Below are positions 1-9,027 of a stretch of 40,661 nucleotides of DNA, one piece after another; positions within the stretch are counted from its first letter, which is position 1, and every line of letters begins with the position of its first letter. The stretch is from an uncultured Pelagibacteraceae bacterium. GTDB lineage: Bacteria; Pseudomonadota; Alphaproteobacteria; Pelagibacterales; AG-422-B15. Made by a program: the position numbers and the translations under genes. Where the stretch lies: assembly GCA_902565955.1 (NCBI GenBank), contig CACFGR010000003.1, positions 1 through 40,661 on the forward strand, in the 5' to 3' direction. The notes beneath the pieces are model-generated. The model searched no databases. It had not been told where the DNA came from and saw only the letters and a list, made by a program, of their open reading frames with translations.

Positions 1-600
1 TTTCCATACCCATTTGCATTGCTGCCATTGGGTCATTCATCATCATGTTTGGATCCATACCCATGGATGCACCCATATCATACATCGCCATAGGATCCAT
101 TGGTCCTGGCATCATACCGCCCATCATTGGATCCATCATTCCCATTGGCGCGCCTCCTGCCATTGGGTCCATCATTGGCATTCCTGGCATTCCCATAGGT
201 CCCATATCCATTGGTCCCATGCCCATCATTGGTCCCATATCCATTGGCATTCCTGGCATTCCCATTGGGCCCATGCCCTCCATACCAGGAAGCATAGACA
301 TATCCATATCCATCATTCCACCAAAGTCTGCAGGGCCAATCATTTCTGCTGTCATCATCGGCCCCATAAACATTTCACCTGCTTGCATTTGAGCTTGCAT
401 CATTCCTTGCATATCAGCCATCGAAGCCTGCATATCCACTTGTAATTGAGCAATCATATCTGCTCCCATTACATCTCCCATATCAGCCATGAAAGCGGCA
501 CCTTGATTACCCATCATTTGTGTCATACCGGCAGCCATCATGCCTGCCATCTCAGGATTTGCAGCAGCCATTTGACCCATAAACTCTCCAGCAAGGTCAG
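1..600 (-). repeat. Met/Gly/Pro-rich low-complexity C-terminal region of the giant protein
   Basis: Reverse translation: ...MGPMGMPGMPMDMGPMMGMGPMDMGPMGMPGMPMMDPMAGGAPMGMMDPMMGGMMPGPMDPMAMYDMGASMGMDPNMMMNDPMAAMQMGME. DNA repeats: ATTGGCATTCCTGGCATTCC at ~174 and ~243 (69 bp apart), GGTCCCATATCCATTGG at ~198 and ~231 (33 bp apart). Confidence 0.9.
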
Positions 601-3600
601 CCATTCCACCTTGTGTAGCTAACTGTGCCATACCACTTGCTATGTTTGCTGCAAGCTCTGGGTTATTTGCAACTAGGTCGCCCGCAAATTCTGCGGCAGC
701 GCCTGGATCAAACTGAGCCATTCCAGCGGCAACTTGACCAGCTATCGCAGGATTGGCTTCGGCCATCGATCCTGCAATTGCACCTACGGCATCAGGCGCT
801 AGTTCAGCAACACCTGCGGCAACTAAAGTTGCGGCAGCAGGATTTGCACTTGCCATTGCACCTGCAACATCTCCAGCAAGAGCTGGGTCGATAGCAGCAA
901 GGTTACCTGCGATTTCTCCTGCAGCTGCAGGGTTAGCCTGCGCCATTCCACCCGCAAAAGCTCCAGCTGCATCGGGATTAGCAGCAGCTACATCTTGCAT
1001 AATTCCAACAGCAGCCTCTCCATCAGGAATAGCTGCTAAAACTCCACCTGCAACAGCACCAGCGGCGGCAGGATTTGATGTCATTGCTGCGTCAATTACT
1101 CCAGCAGCAACATCAGGATTATCAGCAACCATTGCGCCGACAACTGTGCCAGCAGCAACAGGTGCCATTTCAGCCACACCACCAGCAATATCGTTAACTA
1201 AATTTGGATCTGCTCCAACCATCTCCATTGCAACACCTGCTGCAACTTGTGGATTACCAGCAGCGGCTCCGCCAGCGATATCTCCTGCCATATCAGGATT
1301 CGCTTCCATCATGCCTACTGCAATTTCACCTGCTTGTTGTGGAGCACCCGCGGCCATACCGCCAGCAATCTCACCTACAAAATTTTCGGCCATATCAGGA
1401 TTGGCCATAGCAGCATCCATCATGATACCCGCCATGTCACCAGCAATATCAGGATCACCGACTGCCATACCTTGAGCAATTGCTCCAACTGCATTTCCTG
1501 CAAAATTTTCAACTAACGCATCAAGTTGTTCTGGGTTAAGATCTGGATTCGCCGTAGCAGCGTTTTCTGCAAACTCTGCGGCAAAATCAGGTGCCATTGC
1601 AACTTCCATCATTGCACCTGCAACGTCTCCTGCAACTTCAGGGGCTGCGTTTGCCATACCTGCAGCAGCCGCAGAGGCAGCAGCAGGATTAGCTTCCATC
1701 ATCGCACCAGCGGCTTCAGCAGCAAGAGCTGGATCAGCTTCTGCTATAGCGCCAGCTACAGCACCGGCAGCGCCTGGAACATTTTCAGCAACAGCGGCAG
1801 CCATATCAGCAGCACCATCTGGATTTGCTTCAACCATCGCACCGGCTACGTCACCAGCGGCACCAGGAGCCATTTGTGCAACACCTCCTGCAATATCTCC
1901 CATTAATTCTGGATTGGCATTAACCATATCTGTAGCAACTTGAGCAGCAATATTAGCATCACCTCTTGCAACTCCGCCAGCGATTGCACCAGCTGCATCA
2001 GGCGCAGCTTCCATCATTGCAGTCGCAGCATCAGCAGCCAATTCAGGAGCAGCATCTGCTAAACTTTGCGCTGCTAAACCTGCAGTATCAGGGTTTGCAG
2101 CAACCATTGCGCTTGCGGCGTCTGCAGCAATCTCAGGAGCGGCTTCTGCCATTGCTCCCATTGCAGCTCCTGCAGCAATTGGATTTGCTTCAGCCATTGC
2201 AGCAGCCATATCTGTTGCAGCTTCTGGATTTGCTTCAACCATTGCACCAGCAACATCACCAGCTGCACTAGGTGCAAACTCAGCAACACCGCCAGCAATA
2301 TCAGCTGCGGCATCTGGATTTGCAGCAGCCATAGCAGTTGCTATATCAGCAGCTTGTCCAGGGTCTCCAGCGGCCATGCCGCCAGCAATATCTCCTGCTA
2401 ATTCTGGATTAGCTGCAACCATCGCACCAGCAACATCAGCAGCTTGATCAGGTGCAGCGGCAGCAATTCCTTGAGCAATCCCTTGAGCGGCCTCAGGAGC
2501 AGCATCCATCATAGCGCCAGCAATTTCTCCAGCAATTTCTGGATTTGCTCCAGCCATTCCTTCAGCAATATCTCCAGCAACATCTGGATTAGCGGCAGCC
2601 ATAGCACCAGCAGCATCTGCAGCAAGATCAGGCAATGTATCTGCTATCGCGCCAGCAGTACCTTCAGCAGCCATTGGATTTGCTTCAGCCATAGCACCAG
2701 CAACGGCTAATGCAGCATCAGGGTTCAATTCAGCAACAGAACTCATCATATTATCAGCAGCACCGGGTGCAGTTTCTGCAAGAACGGCAGCCATTGTAGC
2801 TGTGGCTTCAGGGTTTGCTTCAATTAACGTGTTCGCAACATTTTCCATAGCGACAGGTGCGGCCATTGCAACTCCAGTAGCAATGTCACCCGCAATATCA
2901 GGATTAGCTGCAACCATCGCACCTGCAATATCAGCAGCAGCTTCAGGGTTAGCCATTGCCATTCCACCTGCGATATCAGCGGCAGCTTCAGGCGCAGCAG
3001 CGGCCATAGCATTTGCTGCATCAGCAGCAAGCTCTGGTGCGGCTTCCATCATTCCTTCTGCAGCCATTTGCGCAGCAGCAGGGTTGGCCTCAGCCATAGC
3101 AGCAGCAGCCTCAACGGCTAGTTCAGGATTACTCTCAGCAATAGCAGCAGCCATATCTCCAGCCATTTCAGGAGCAGCTTGAGCTACAGCGCCAGCCATA
3201 GCGGCAGCGGCTTCAGGTGCAGCTTCCATCATAGCTCCTGCGACATCAGCAACAGCGTCAGGATTTGCATTTGCCATTCCGCCTACAATTGCAGCAGCGG
3301 CATCTGGGTTTGCTTCAACTAGTGCGGTAGCAGCATCTGCAGCAGCTTCAGGTGCTTGAGCAGCAACGCCAGCAGCGATTGCTCCAGCGGCATCTGGATT
3401 AGCTTGGATCAATGCGGCAGCAGCTTCAGCAGCAGCTTCGGGTGCTTGAGCTGAAACAACATTTGCGATTGCTCCAGCTGCATTAGGATTAATCGCAGCC
3501 ATGTCTCCAGCAATATCAGCTGCCAAGTCTGGATCTGCGGCAGCAACAGTCGCGGCAATATTTGCTACAGCTCCTGCCATAGCTTCTGGGTTGACAGCGG

Positions 3601-6600
3601 CCATGTCAGCTGCAATATCTCCAGCAAGTTCTGGTGCGGCCTGAGCAACAGAAGTTGCGATTAGGGCAGCAGCGGCAGGATTGGCTTCAGCAAGTGAACC
3701 AGCCACATTCGCAGCAGCTTCAGGCGCAGCTTCCGCAACACCCGCAGCAATCATCCCAGCAGCTTGAGGTACAGCTTCTGCTAGCGCAGCAGCGGTATCT
3801 GCAGCAGCGCCAGGATCAACTTCTATTATTGCGGCAGTAATATCTTGAGCGGCTGCAGGATTAGCAGCAGTCATTGCAGTTGCAGCAGCAACTGCAGCTT
3901 CAGGGTTTGCATCTACAACGGCAGCCATTGCATCGCCAGCAGCAGCTGGTGCAATTTGTGCAACCCCTGTAGCAATATCATTTAGAGCTTCTGGATTGGC
4001 ATCGGCCATTGCTCCTATAACATCGCCAACAGCGTCAGGTGCGCTTCTTGCCATTCCACCTGCGATTGCTGAGGCAGCATCAGGTGCAGCTTCTGCCATT
4101 GCAACAGCAACATCAGCAGCCATTTCAGGATTACCACTTGCAATACCCGCAGCAACTGCGGATGCAGCTTCTGGTGCAGCTTCTGCCATTGCTGCAGCAG
4201 CCTGAGTTGCAATGTCAGTACTTCCGCCATCAAAGAAACCTGCATCGGCCACAACAGCAGCCATGCCTTGTGCTGCAGAAGCAGCAGCAGCAGGACTAGC
4301 TTCAGCCATTGCTGTAGCAGCAGCTACAGCTTGTTCAGGTGCAGACTCCATCAATGCACCAGCAATGTCTCCAGCAGCAGCTGGATTTGCTTCTGCCATT
4401 GCAGCTGCAAGTTCACCTGCAGCTTCAGGGTCATTCGAAATAAGTTCAGATGCAACAGATGCTGCAGCTTCTGGCGCAAATTGGGCGACTGCGGCAGCCA
4501 TGTCAGCAGCAGCGTCAGGGTTAGCATTAGCCATTGCAGCTGTTACTTCAGCAGCAAATTCTGGAATAGCAGCAGCTGTGCTTGCAGCGATTTGTGCAGC
4601 AGCTTCTGGGTTTGCCTCTGCTAATGCGAGAGCAGCGTCAGCGGCAACCTCTGGATTACCCGATGCAACTCCAGCAGCTATTACCCCCGATAATTCTGGT
4701 GCAGCTTCGGCAACAGCTCCGGCCACATCCGCAATAAGTTCAGGTGCAGCTTCGGCAAGTCCCGCCATCGCCTCACCAGCTGCAGCAGGGTTTGCTTCTG
4801 CCATTGCAGTTGCTATTTCAGCGGCAGCGCCTGGATCAGCGGCAGCCATTGCTCCCAACACTTCTCCAGCAGTTTCAGGTGCAACTTGTGCAACTTGTGC
4901 CGCCATGTCTGCATTAAAGTCTGCCATATCTTCCGGTGATACCCCAGGTATCTCAGCCATTTGTTCCATCATCTGACCTGCAATTTCACCTGCAGCTTCA
5001 GGATCAGCAGCCGCAACAGCGGTTGCAATGTTTGCTGTCATTTCAGCCATTTGTTCTGCAGGATCAAAATCTGCAGGGGCGCCAGGAATCTCTGCCATTT
5101 GCTCCATCATCGCTCCGGCAAGTTCTGCAGCCTGCTCCGGCGCAGCGGCTGTTGCTTGCGTAGCAATTGCAGTTGTCATATCAGCCATTTGTCCGGCCAT
5201 ATCAAATTCTTCAGGTACATTAGGAATGTCAGCCATAACTTCCATCATGGCTCCTGCTAAGTCTGCAGCTCCTTCTGGATCTGCCTGAACAGCAGCTGAC
5301 GCCATATTAGCAGTCATTCCAGCGCCAGTTTCAGCAAGCGCTTCAGGTTCAATTCCAGGTATCTCTGCCATTTGCTCCATCATCGTTCCAGCTAATTCAG
5401 CTGCGCCTTCAGGATCAGCGATAGTTGCTGCAGATGCAACGTTAGCTGTCATTACGGCAGCAGCTTCGGCAAGTGCGCCTTCGCTTGCATTACCGTCAAC
5501 GGCCGTCATAGCTTCTACCATTGCTCCAGCAACTTCTGCAGCAGCCTCAGGTACTGCACTTGCAACTTGGGTTGCAATTGCTGTTTGCATAGCTAATGCT
5601 TCATCTTGAGAAAAGTTTTCATTACCAGCAGCAACAGCTGCCATTTCACCTGCAATTTCCGTAGCGGCTTCCGGATTAACCTGAGCAACAGTTGCAGCAA
5701 TATTTGCAGCAGCACTTGGTGCAGCTTCAGCCATAGCAACGGCAGTTTCAGTAGCAAGTTCAGGTAATGCTTCACTTACAGCGCCAACAGCAGCGCCTGC
5801 AGTTGCAGGATTTGCGTCAGCCATTGTTGCGGCTGCTTCAACTGCTTGTTCTGGTGCAACTTCTGCAATTGCTCCCATAACTCCCTCAGCAGTTCCAGGA
5901 GCTGACTCAGCGATTTGTTCAGCAATATCTGCAATTGCTTCAGGATTTGCTTCCATCATTGCGCCAGCAATATCACCAGCTAATACTTGTGCAACTTCAG
6001 CTGCAGCGCCTTGCGCTTCAGCAATTGTTTCTTGAGCAGCAGCTTGTACTTCAGTTATTGCGGCTTGAGCTTGAGCTACTAAGTTTGGATCGTCAGATGT
6101 TAAATCTGCTTGTAAATCTGCCCTTGCCTCAGCTACTTGAGCTTGTGCTTCAGCCTGAGCAGCAGCAACTTCTTGCGCGGCATTTGCTTGTGCAGCAACA
6201 GCAACACCTGTTGCAATATCAGCGGCAGCTTCCGGATCAGCAGCGGCCATTTCTGTTGCTACTTCTGCAGCAACTTCAGGATTACCTTGTGCAACTCCGC
6301 CAGCAATTGCAGCGGCAGCCTCTGGAGCAGCTTCTTGCATGGCCATAGCAGCATCACCCGCTTGGTCAGGTGCAAGTTCAGCCATCACTTCAGCAGCTGC
6401 TCCCGCAGCAGCTGGTGCAACTTCAGCCATAGCGGCAGTTGCTTCAATTGCTTGCTCTGGAGCAGCTTCAATAATTGCTTCTGTAGCAAGTGCAGCAGCG
6501 GCTGGATTCGCCTCAGCTATATCCGCGCATAATTCCACAGCTCCATCAGGATTTGATGCCATCATTTCTTGAACCATTTCCGCAGCTGCTTCTGGATTAG

Positions 6601-7510
6601 ATGCAGCGGTACCAGCAATAATTTCAGCGGCAGCGTCAGGGTTCATTTCAATCATCTCTGCAATTATTTCTTGTGTTGCGGCTTGCGATGCTTCAAGCGC
6701 GGCCTCTTGACCTGCTTGGTTATTGTCTAAAAGTGTATCTTGTAAATCAGTTTGAATGTCAACAATGCCTTCTTGACCGACTTCAGAAAATTGTGTTTGT
6801 GCTTCTGCTTGCGCTTCTGCATTAGCTTGAGCAGTTTCTTGATTAACTTCAGCTATAGCGGCTTGCGCAACTCCGGACGCAACACCTGCGGCAACAGCGG
6901 CAGCCGCTTCTGGCGCAGCTTGAGCCATTGCAGTTGCGACTTGTGAAGCAGATTCAGGGTCAACAGCAGCTACTGCACTGGCTGCTCCGCTTGCAGCTGC
7001 TGGGTTTGCAGCAGCCATTGATGCAGCAGCATCAACAGCATGTTCAGGTGCTGCTTGCGCAACGGCACTCGCAACTGCTCCTGCAGCAGCTGGAGCAACC
7101 TCAGCTATGGCGGCAGCCATGTCTGCGGCACCTTCAGGATTTATTTGTGTAAGAGATGCGGCAACAGCACCAGCGGCAGCTGGAACATTTTGCACTACAT
7201 CCGAGGCAACTTCCTCGGCAATGTCTGGCGCTGCACTTGCCATAGCGGCTGCAGTTGCATTTGCAGTAGCAGGAGCGGCAGCGGCAATAGCACCTGCGAT
7301 TTCAGCAGCTTGTTCAGGTATAGCTTGTGCTGTAACTGTAGCTATTTGTTGTGCAGCTGCAGGATTTGCTTGCACTACGGCAGCAAGCATCTCATCTGAA
7401 TTATCATTATTTGCTGCGTAATTTTGTATTAGTGCCTGTTGTTCCTCTTGTGACCCTGCTGCGGCGACCTGTTGAAAAAATTCTTGAGCTTCTGCTGGAC
7501 TTACTGGCAT
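1..7510 (-). CDS. Giant alanine-rich 15-residue-repeat protein (C-terminus truncated by window edge; >=2503 codons)
   Basis: Hand reverse translation from ATG at 7510-7508 (MPVSPAEAQEFFQQVAAAGSQEEQQALIQNYAANNDNSDEMLAAVVQANPAAAQQIA...). Frame phase checked at about 6716, 5903, 4952, 4247, 2300, 701 and 2-4: all in the same phase, no stop seen. AAAGGG Shine-Dalgarno-like sequence upstream of the ATG; tolC-like gene 31 bp upstream on the same strand. Repeats such as PELAGDIAGGMAAGD / PGQAADIATAMAAAN / PDAAADIAG are exactly 15 residues apart. Confidence 0.93.
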   Translation of the reverse strand, partial: MPVSPAEAQEFFQQVAAAGSQEEQQALIQNYAANNDNSDEMLAAVVQANPAAAQQIATVTAQAIPEQAAEIAGAIAAAAPATANATAAAMASAAPDIAEEVASDVVQNVPAAAGAVAASLTQINPEGAADMAAAIAEVAPAAAGAVASAVAQAAPEHAVDAAASMAAANPAAASGAASAVAAVDPESASQVATAMAQAAPEAAAAVAAGVASGVAQAAIAEVNQETAQANAEAQAEAQTQFSEVGQEGIVDIQTDLQDTLLDNNQAGQEAALEASQAATQEIIAEMIEMNPDAAAEIIAGTAASNPEAAAEMVQEMMASNPDGAVELCADIAEANPAAAALATEAIIEAAPEQAIEATAAMAEVAPAAAGAAAEVMAELAPDQAGDAAMAMQEAAPEAAAAIAGGVAQGNPEVAAEVATEMAAADPEAAADIATGVAVAAQANAAQEVAAAQAEAQAQVAEARADLQADLTSDDPNLVAQAQAAITEVQAAAQETIAEAQGAAAEVAQVLAGDIAGAMMEANPEAIADIAEQIAESAPGTAEGVMGAIAEVAPEQAVEAAATMADANPATAGAAVGAVSEALPELATETAVAMAEAAPSAAANIAATVAQVNPEAATEIAGEMAAVAAGNENFSQDEALAMQTAIATQVASAVPEAAAEVAGAMVEAMTAVDGNASEGALAEAAAVMTANVASAATIADPEGAAELAGTMMEQMAEIPGIEPEALAETGAGMTANMASAAVQADPEGAADLAGAMMEVMADIPNVPEEFDMAGQMADMTTAIATQATAAAPEQAAELAGAMMEQMAEIPGAPADFDPAEQMAEMTANIATAVAAADPEAAGEIAGQMMEQMAEIPGVSPEDMADFNADMAAQVAQVAPETAGEVLGAMAAADPGAAAEIATAMAEANPAAAGEAMAGLAEAAPELIADVAGAVAEAAPELSGVIAAGVASGNPEVAADAALALAEANPEAAAQIAASTAAAIPEFAAEVTAAMANANPDAAADMAAAVAQFAPEAAASVASELISNDPEAAGELAAAMAEANPAAAGDIAGALMESAPEQAVAAATAMAEASPAAAASAAQGMAAVVADAGFFDGGSTDIATQAAAAMAEAAPEAASAVAAGIASGNPEMAADVAVAMAEAAPDAASAIAGGMARSAPDAVGDVIGAMADANPEALNDIATGVAQIAPAAAGDAMAAVVDANPEAAVAAATAMTAANPAAAQDITAAIIEVDPGAAADTAAALAEAVPQAAGMIAAGVAEAAPEAAANVAGSLAEANPAAAALIATSVAQAAPELAGDIAADMAAVNPEAMAGAVANIAATVAAADPDLAADIAGDMAAINPNAAGAIANVVSAQAPEAAAEAAAALIQANPDAAGAIAAGVAAQAPEAAADAATALVEANPDAAAAIVGGMANANPDAVADVAGAMMEAAPEAAAAMAGAVAQAAPEMAGDMAAAIAESNPELAVEAAAAMAEANPAAAQMAAEGMMEAAPELAADAANAMAAAAPEAAADIAGGMAMANPEAAADIAGAMVAANPDIAGDIATGVAMAAPVAMENVANTLIEANPEATATMAAVLAETAPGAADNMMSSVAELNPDAALAVAGAMAEANPMAAEGTAGAIADTLPDLAADAAGAMAAANPDVAGDIAEGMAGANPEIAGEIAGAMMDAAPEAAQGIAQGIAAAAPDQAADVAGAMVAANPELAGDIAGGMAAGDPGQAADIATAMAAANPDAAADIAGGVAEFAPSAAGDVAGAMVEANPEAATDMAAAMAEANPIAAGAAMGAMAEAAPEIAADAASAMVAANPDTAGLAAQSLADAAPELAADAATAMMEAAPDAAGAIAGGVARGDANIAAQVATDMVNANPELMGDIAGGVAQMAPGAAGDVAGAMVEANPDGAADMAAAVAENVPGAAGAVAGAIAEADPALAAEAAGAMMEANPAAASAAAAGMANAAPEVAGDVAGAMMEVAMAPDFAAEFAENAATANPDLNPEQLDALVENFAGNAVGAIAQGMAVGDPDIAGDMAGIMMDAAMANPDMAENFVGEIAGGMAAGAPQQAGEIAVGMMEANPDMAGDIAGGAAAGNPQVAAGVAMEMVGADPNLVNDIAGGVAEMAPVAAGTVVGAMVADNPDVAAGVIDAAMTSNPAAAGAVAGGVLAAIPDGEAAVGIMQDVAAANPDAAGAFAGGMAQANPAAAGEIAGNLAAIDPALAGDVAGAMASANPAAATLVAAGVAELAPDAVGAIAGSMAEANPAIAGQVAAGMAQFDPGAAAEFAGDLVANNPELAANIASGMAQLATQGGMADLAGEFMGQMAAANPEMAGMMAAGMTQMMGNQGAAFMADMGDVMGADMIAQLQVDMQASMADMQGMMQAQMQAGEMFMGPMMTAEMIGPADFGGMMDMDMSMLPGMEGMGPMGMPGMPMDMGPMMGMGPMDMGPMGMPGMPMMDPMAGGAPMGMMDPMMGGMMPGPMDPMAMYDMGASMGMDPNMMMNDPMAAMQMGME
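600..7390 (-). repeat. Degenerate 45-bp (15-aa) coding repeat array, often paired as 90 bp (30 aa)
   Basis: Pro-to-Pro spacing of 15 residues in hand-translated stretches; recurrent A-N/A-P-[ED]-A-A-x-[DE]-[IVMA]-A-G-A-M-[AVM]-E pattern. Confidence 0.9.
4943..5400 (-). repeat. ~46-aa super-repeat block (MMEQMAEIPG...)
   Basis: ATCTC[AT]GCCATTTG[TC]TCCATCAT-like segments begin near 4950, 5088, 5226 and 5361 (spacing 138, 138, 135 nt). Confidence 0.8.
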
Positions 7511-7541: not shown

Positions 7542-8891
7542 TCAAGATGACGTATTGAATGTTCCTTCCCTAGAATTATCTTCAACCATTTCAGGCTGGA
7601 GTAGATCTATTACATCTAAAACTTCATAAACTGATGTTAATAAAGACATGCTATCGTCAGAAAGATCCTTGAGAGAGCTTTCAAGAGCATCTTCTGCTGC
7701 TAGGACTGCAGCAGCATCTGTTTGATCGGCGGCTCTTTCTTTCTGTGCTATCGTAAGTAACTCTTTTGCTATTGTTGCTTCATTCTCACTGTAGGAGAGC
7801 ATTGTCCTTGCATTGGCATATTCAATCCAAGCGTCTTTTGCAGCCTTGATCGTATCACGCTCTTTGAGTGCTAAGTCATTTATTGCTCTTTCTAGTGCTG
7901 AACGATCATTTAAATATCCTGGCATCTCCATGTATAAACCAGATATTGGAAATTCAACTGTTACTTTCATTTGTTCTTCGTAATGATTACCAGTTGTATG
8001 TGATGCATCGTCTTTATATGAAAGCTTTGCTTCTGCGTCTACAGTGGGTCCAAAATTAGCTAAAGCAGAACTGAGATCGTTCTTTGCAATGTCAACATCC
8101 ATTTTAGCAATTCGTAAGTCTCTATTATTTGCAAGCGCCATAACAACTGTAGCTTCCATAGATTTAGGCATCATACTGATGACTGATGGCGCTAGCCTTG
8201 GTTTGCGTAATTGATTAACATTAACATCGTCTACTTTAAATAGTTTCTCATAGGTAAACTTTGCTGATTTAAAACTTTTTTCGTCACTTATTAGTGTTTT
8301 TTGTGCGTTAGCAAGTTGCCTTTTGGCTTTAAGAACGTCTGAAGCTAATCCAGAGCCAACCTGAACTCTTATTTCTTCTTGTCCAGAAGTTTGACGAGTG
8401 TTTGCTTCTGCTGATATGGAAGCTTCCAACTTCTCATTAGCTTTAATTAATCCAAGGTAAGCATCTGCAGCCTCTATCAACAAATCATTCCTAGCAGTAG
8501 TTAATTCAAGTTCTGATTTTTTTAACTCTAGTCTTTTATTTGATATTTCAGACATTGTTGCGCCAGAGTCCATTATTTTTTGTTTCCAAGTCAAGTCATG
8601 AGTGTCGAAATTTAATTGTGAGTTAGAACTTGCTGTTGCAGCGTCATACTTATCATTTCTTCCTGATTCATACTTCCATGAAAGATCAGGAGCATAAGCA
8701 AGAATTGAATCTGTTATATCCCTTCCAGCTTCTTCAACTTCTTTTTTTGCATTGATTACATCTTCATGGCTACTTAAAACAACATCAACCATTTCAGATA
8801 AAGTTTCTGATTTAGAAGGAAGAATTAATAACATGAATGCAATAAATGAATACATCATGTAACAAATAAATTGCTTGAATTTTATCATCAT
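7542..8891 (-). CDS. tolC: TolC-family outer membrane efflux/secretion protein
   Basis: Signal-like N-terminus (MIKFKQFICYMMYSFIAFMLLILPSKSETLSEMV) and TolC coiled-coil repeat character (TARNDLLIEAADAYLGLIKANEKLEAS..., VGSGLASDVLKAKRQLANAQKTL). The ORF extends to 8933; the start near 8891/8888 is more plausible. Confidence 0.85.
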   Translation of the reverse strand: MMIKFKQFICYMMYSFIAFMLLILPSKSETLSEMVDVVLSSHEDVINAKKEVEEAGRDITDSILAYAPDLSWKYESGRNDKYDAATASSNSQLNFDTHDLTWKQKIMDSGATMSEISNKRLELKKSELELTTARNDLLIEAADAYLGLIKANEKLEASISAEANTRQTSGQEEIRVQVGSGLASDVLKAKRQLANAQKTLISDEKSFKSAKFTYEKLFKVDDVNVNQLRKPRLAPSVISMMPKSMEATVVMALANNRDLRIAKMDVDIAKNDLSSALANFGPTVDAEAKLSYKDDASHTTGNHYEEQMKVTVEFPISGLYMEMPGYLNDRSALERAINDLALKERDTIKAAKDAWIEYANARTMLSYSENEATIAKELLTIAQKERAADQTDAAAVLAAEDALESSLKDLSDDSMSLLTSVYEVLDVIDLLQPEMVEDNSREGTFNTSS

Positions 8892-9027
8892 AATAACCTC
8901 ATCAAATAAATTGGACTCAACGAAGATTATCAATCAATTATGGGAGATTTACAATGCTTTTATCTCTAAAAATAAGTAGAAATTGGTGATAAAATATATG
9001 GATATTACTGGTTTTTTTATTAAACGA

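Follow-up and report, generated by a model that had tools for sequence, protein, structure and literature searches.

A methionine-rich, predicted disordered segment in a probable type I secretion substrate of an uncultured Pelagibacteraceae bacterium, a candidate adhesive tail

Giant RTX adhesins (MpAFP; LapA-like proteins) are huge, repetitive and acidic, with a C-terminus of the RTX/type I secretion system (T1SS) type and an operon that includes TolC, ABC and HlyD-type components. Other described systems to be considered are the disordered, Met-enriched domain of yeast Pbp1 (ataxin-2), the Met-rich MrpX, which lies outside the cytoplasm and works with MsrP/MsrQ, and the disordered, Met-containing, extracytoplasmic sponges SilE and PcoE. 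The window analysed here is the whole contig CACFGR010000003.1 (G000:C3:1-40661; 40,661 nucleotides) of an uncultured Pelagibacteraceae bacterium, whose genome is incomplete (867 kb, 62% complete). It carries a giant open reading frame (ORF) that resembles the adhesins in size, repetitiveness and acidity and, in its relatives, in the operon and in a C-terminus that is RTX in some and of another T1SS-like type in others. Like the other systems it has a Met-containing segment, here a Met-rich tail that is predicted to be disordered and is probably extracellular. An even chance is given here to this tail being a disordered 'sticker-and-spacer' segment for adhesion or self-association, possibly tuned by oxidation, on a T1SS-exported giant alpha-solenoid.

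The last 200 residues of the giant ORF contained 66 Met (33%) and the last 133 contained 50 (38%), compared to a maximum of 13 in any 133-residue stretch of the other window proteins, where the Met background was 2.7% (binomial P about 4e-43 for the excess). When the tail DNA was read in all frames, 49 Met appeared in the frame of the giant and 0 to 4 in the other five. The original prediction, made from the letters of this contig, had described an Ala repeat grading into a region with about a third or more of Met and with near-perfect DNA repeats at 69-bp and 33-bp offsets, all of which was confirmed (Table 1). The same region had been seen to reach the window edge; it does continue in relatives, to 414-521 amino acids (aa), but the edge is a contig break. 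The open end of the ORF is therefore the end of the assembly and not of the protein, which was to be expected because the contigs of most other relatives break inside the same region; no further piece of the gene was found in the window's own genome beyond the contig end.

Same-genus giants complete through the tail were present as intact ORFs in G027 (3058 aa), G038 (2958 aa) and G014 (3176 aa), and G022 supplied the last 1037 aa of another. Their Met-rich regions contained 34-42% Met (216, 140, 191 and 181 Met in G027, G038, G014 and G022, respectively), and no His or Cys was found in any of these four tails. After the Met-rich region came a short stretch of aromatic residues ('WNG..Y' in several), frequently runs of Gly, and then a C-terminal domain. 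RTX (PF00353) scored above the cut-off in the C-termini of G014 and G015, while those of G027, G038 and G022 had a '..DTFVF..GDKIKI..' domain that has no Pfam model and gave no RTX match; the NCBIfam scan of the complete giants returned only RTX-region or non-significant matches. The gene order tolC - giant - ABC exporter - HlyD was observed in G027, G038 and G014, and from the tail on in G022, with the ABC (PF00005, PF00664) and HlyD (PF13437) genes directly after the giant in G027. Given this order, the giant is very probably a T1SS substrate, and a C-terminus of RTX or other secretion type, as anticipated beyond the tail, was seen in relatives with ABC and HlyD genes downstream. The incomplete genome of the window itself showed no ABC or HlyD of the giant-operon type. 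The placing of the tail at the distal end of a giant rod held in part: the tail lies beyond the repeat but ahead of the secretion signal, and an N-terminal anchor was not found.

A protein with an inverse-autotransporter beta-domain (PF11924, E 2e-31) was encoded after HlyD in G027, with a similar ORF in G038 (L042, 13590-14663; L043, 13409-14368), but neither G014 nor G022 had one there. This protein may be a partner of the giant at the surface.

In the four relatives whose assemblies span everything between the junction and the C-terminus, the Met fraction of the tail stayed at 34-42% while fourfold sites differed at 45-62%. Among the four longest aligned tails, amino acid identity was 67-80% and fourfold third positions differed at 52-57%. 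In three anchor blocks, picked by motif and therefore a biased choice, 96-100% of Met was kept at a fourfold divergence of 58-67%. The motif GMDPMM occurred in 15 copies in G027 with 7 DNA spellings. These comparisons suggest that the high Met content goes back a long way and is maintained at the protein level, with signs of purifying selection and a conservation that is not absolute, and that individual repeats are gained and lost under a constant composition. An origin of the tail by slippage only was rejected, many DNA spellings being used per peptide motif. Codon choice also differed in the tails of L042, L044 and L045, where GAC made up about half of the Asp codons, against about a fifth of those in the repeats, and where the share of GGC codons was higher as well.

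The Ala-rich repeat is predicted to form an alpha-solenoid, as AlphaFold2 gave one 14-residue helix per 15-residue unit over 300 residues (mean predicted local distance difference test score (pLDDT) 79.5, predicted template modelling score 0.68). In a model of residues 2200-2503, the repeats and the junction were helical with lower confidence (pLDDT mostly 52-73), whereas the part that starts near residue 2377 was mostly coil at a pLDDT of about 38-54. The tail is accordingly predicted to be disordered, a call made on low AlphaFold2 confidence with a shallow alignment and so a prediction and not a proof. With the repeat model, Foldseek reached E<=0.001 for no structure; its weak matches were alpha-solenoids, importins among them. 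A PDB sequence search with the repeat gave no match. A Pfam XPC-binding match on the repeat was rejected as the sum of many weak helical repeats, no single stretch being over the threshold.

The proposed mechanism is that of a giant acidic protein with almost no Lys or Arg, which would be exported via its own T1SS. Its long alpha-solenoid, built of helical repeats of 15 residues, would lead into a disordered stretch of about 400-520 residues rich in Met, Gly, Pro and Asp, and the protein would end in an RTX or other T1SS-type C-terminus. Met side chains may act as flexible hydrophobic stickers separated by Gly/Pro/Asp spacers, letting the exported filament adhere to itself or to surfaces, and Met oxidation could weaken this stickiness. 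The observations behind this proposal are the sequence, the architecture of relatives, conservation and gene order, to which the predicted helical repeat and disordered tail are added; T1SS export, surface location, stickiness and redox tuning are deduced from them. Among the functions offered by the original prediction, self-association fits best, again by deduction.

Methionine is not the only residue found at this place. In G037, on the contig bearing the downstream ABC gene, an anchor block was recognisably homologous (34/68 identical; score 173 compared to a shuffle mean of 7, s.d. 11) but had 13 Met instead of 31. Mostly Ile, Phe and Leu stood where the 18 Met had been lost, and GPDYGPAYGG repeats came after the block. 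In other operons of the genus, with more divergent ABC proteins, GDYGVPGMP, GPGFEGGPGF or GGPNPPGGPN occupied this position, and in relatives with 46-48% identical ABC proteins the equivalent position was often Tyr/Phe/Pro/Gly-rich. Because G037 and the divergent operons show other residues, Met may be just one among a set of hydrophobic or aromatic residues that act as stickers. In yeast Pbp1, Met-to-Tyr changes keep the condensates and make the droplets peroxide-resistant (PMC8394241). A further Met/Gly/Phe-rich tail, GMPMDMGYGMPGG.. then GEGPGFEGG.., was read across two frames in G004:C11 (L069, 1-300), reflecting either a sequence error or a real frameshift.

Several points weigh against the adhesive, self-associating tail. 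The G037 comparison spans two contigs of one genome with an unsequenced gap between them. Outside the anchors, in the unbiased comparison, Met columns were 61-77% conserved and the other columns 68-83%, so that Met was kept no better. Conservation, where seen, tells that Met matters and leaves the reason unstated, and no ligand, partner or surface anchor was identified for the giant. Loss of the Met motifs in homologues, which the original prediction had named as counting against it, was found only in part, the motifs being conserved across the genus and lost from more than half of the Met positions of one G037 anchor block.

The weighing of alternatives depends on composition and on the cost of sulfur. 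Of the 2503 residues of the window giant, 0 are Lys, 3 are Arg, and His and Cys occur once each; giants of 2503-3176 aa contained 3-14 Lys+Arg, 1-3 His and one Cys, with a pI of about 4. Each molecule of the three complete giants holds 302-377 sulfur atoms. Sulfite reductase (PF01077) was detected in 0/43 genus genomes and in 11/14 control genomes; the usual route of sulfate assimilation seems to be missing in the genus, as has been reported for SAR11 (PMC5069961), and a dependence on reduced sulfur is inferred. Met is probably costly in the genus, because no sulfite reductase was found in the 43 genomes. Among the PAPS-reductase matches, the full-length one that was read, a 490-aa ORF in G042:C6 (L149, 186-1658), looks like CysD and not CysH, and the next ORF encodes a CysN-like GTPase; in this genus with no sulfite reductase found, the pair perhaps serves sulfation.

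The tail could instead be a passive spacer that need only be disordered, N-poor and Lys/Arg-free to present and thread the T1SS C-terminus, with Met as an acceptable hydrophobic filler. This is held to be unlikely. It would suit the low side-chain N of the giant (about 0.09 per residue compared to 0.32 in 20 other window proteins), its few Lys and Arg, the Tyr/Phe/Pro/Gly-rich equivalents in relatives with the divergent ABC, and the free variation of tail length and repeats, yet a probably costly residue has been kept at 34-42% over deep synonymous divergence and the anchor blocks are conserved, where cheaper residues would be expected. An improbable role is that of a sacrificial oxidant sink, in which exposed Met would consume H2O2 or hypohalites around the cell, whether or not Msr enzymes repair it. 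In its favour are the 140-216 Met per tail and the bacterial precedents of MrpX/MsrP and of Met residues in Bacillus cereus exoproteins (PMC5526929). However, the survey of MsrP-type (PF00174) and MsrA reductases found no MsrP-type enzyme in any of the 43 genus genomes (the family was present in 9/14 control genomes), and MsrA, present in 43/43, began near the catalytic GAGCFWG motif and had no signal peptide in the copies read. The oxidant scavenging that was originally suggested is thus not supported in a recycled form; an unrepaired sink would be an expensive way to remove oxidants without sulfate reduction, and more than half of the Met was lost from the G037 anchor block.

A soft-metal sponge, whose thioether clusters would bind Cu(I), Ag(I) or similar ions for copper sequestration or acquisition, is considered quite improbable. 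Met thioethers do bind Cu(I) and Ag(I), the tail holds many pairs of the MxM and MxxM kinds, and SilE is a disordered Met/His sponge (PMC5008109). Compared to shuffled tails, however, MxM pairs were rarer in all four tails (71 vs 89+-6, 36 vs 47+-4, 66 vs 78+-5 and 60 vs 73+-5) and MxxM pairs were not enriched, and no copper gene was present in the giant operons of G027, G038, G014 and G022. Because MxM fell below the shuffled level and the tail lacks His and Cys, whereas SilE binds via both His and Met, the specific Cu(I)-binding motifs of the original prediction are not supported. Least probable, and already largely refuted, is an explanation by misassembly, by reading in a shifted frame or by recent slippage in an ATG-rich repeat with no protein function: short direct repeats are present and most relatives' contigs break in the tail, but G027, G038 and G014 read through it in intact ORFs of 2958-3176 aa to a secretion-type domain, many DNA spellings are used per motif and fourfold divergence reaches 45-62%. 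The repeat collapse envisaged as a possible source of error was therefore not borne out.

Of the 247 genomes of the order, 19 gave tail matches, and every one of these belongs to the genus of the window (1/10 genera); two of the matches, in G004 and G009, were weak and to the repeats of paralogues. The relatives probably fall within the AG-337-I02/HIMB59 (AEGEAN-169) group (compare PMC8692485). The N-terminal region of the repeat was matched in 15/43 genus genomes and in 0/10 genomes of three sister genera. Other RTX proteins with NP-type helical repeats and no Met tail were encoded in G004 (1675 aa; L051, 4464-9491) and G009 (749 aa; L050, 4273-6522), and are likely paralogues of the giant. 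The features of the window are given in Table 1.

Table 1. Features of the giant gene and its upstream neighbour in the window.
Feature	Position	Strand	Description
Giant ORF, putative T1SS substrate	2..7510	-	2503 aa, no stop before contig end
Ala-rich repeat region, residues 1-2296	623..7510	-	104 exact 15-residue units, type (N/A)PEAAADIAGAMAEA
Junction, residues 2297-2377	380..622	-	Predicted helical; 19 Met/81; 90-100% identity across genus
Met/Gly/Pro/Asp-rich segment, residues 2378-2503	2..379	-	48 Met/126 (38%); runs past contig end
Direct repeats within tail	173..274	.	173-205 / 242-274, 69-bp offset, 94%; 24-bp exact run
Second direct repeat within tail	17-bp exact run at 198	.	33-bp offset
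TolC-type outer-membrane channel (PF02321)	7542..8933	-	Directly upstream of giant, same strand; same neighbour in relatives

If the adhesive reading is right, some planktonic ocean bacteria would spend scarce reduced sulfur on one exported, N-poor and almost Lys/Arg-free giant, and the tail would make a strong example of a low-complexity sequence outside the cell in which methionine itself is selected for. The near-absence of Lys and Arg also means that trypsin-based proteomics would miss the protein. Met-rich and Met-depleted tails form a natural series, which makes it directly testable whether Met serves as a sticker or as a redox switch. No report of this giant Met-tailed protein was found in literature searches. 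A wider proposal, put forward tentatively and thought somewhat unlikely, is that the tail is an extracellular, Met-based, sticky and oxidation-tunable polymer on a giant alpha-solenoid filament, in a genus apparently unable to reduce sulfate, and a bacterial counterpart of redox-responsive Met-rich condensates in which Met is interchangeable with aliphatic or aromatic residues between species.

Compared to the giant RTX adhesins, whose repeats are Ca2+-bound beta-sandwich (Ig-like) domains, the repeats here are predicted 15-residue single helices. No Ca2+-dependent beta-sandwich extender repeat was found by Pfam in the window giant, whose repeats are predicted all-helical, no N-terminal retention module was recognised and no known ligand-binding domain appeared in the Pfam or NCBIfam scans of the giants, while a Met-rich block, predicted to be disordered, precedes the C-terminus. 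The tail differs from SilE, which uses His and Met motifs, by its lack of His, Cys and enriched Met spacing, and from MrpX, a small periplasmic peptide, by its nature and the lack of an MsrP-type enzyme in the 43 genus genomes. Pbp1 is a cytoplasmic eukaryotic RNA-binding protein with far fewer Met and no homology to this bacterial and probably extracellular tail, but the natural exchange of Met for hydrophobic and aromatic residues seen here parallels the engineered Met-to-Tyr changes that retain self-association in Pbp1 (PMC8394241).
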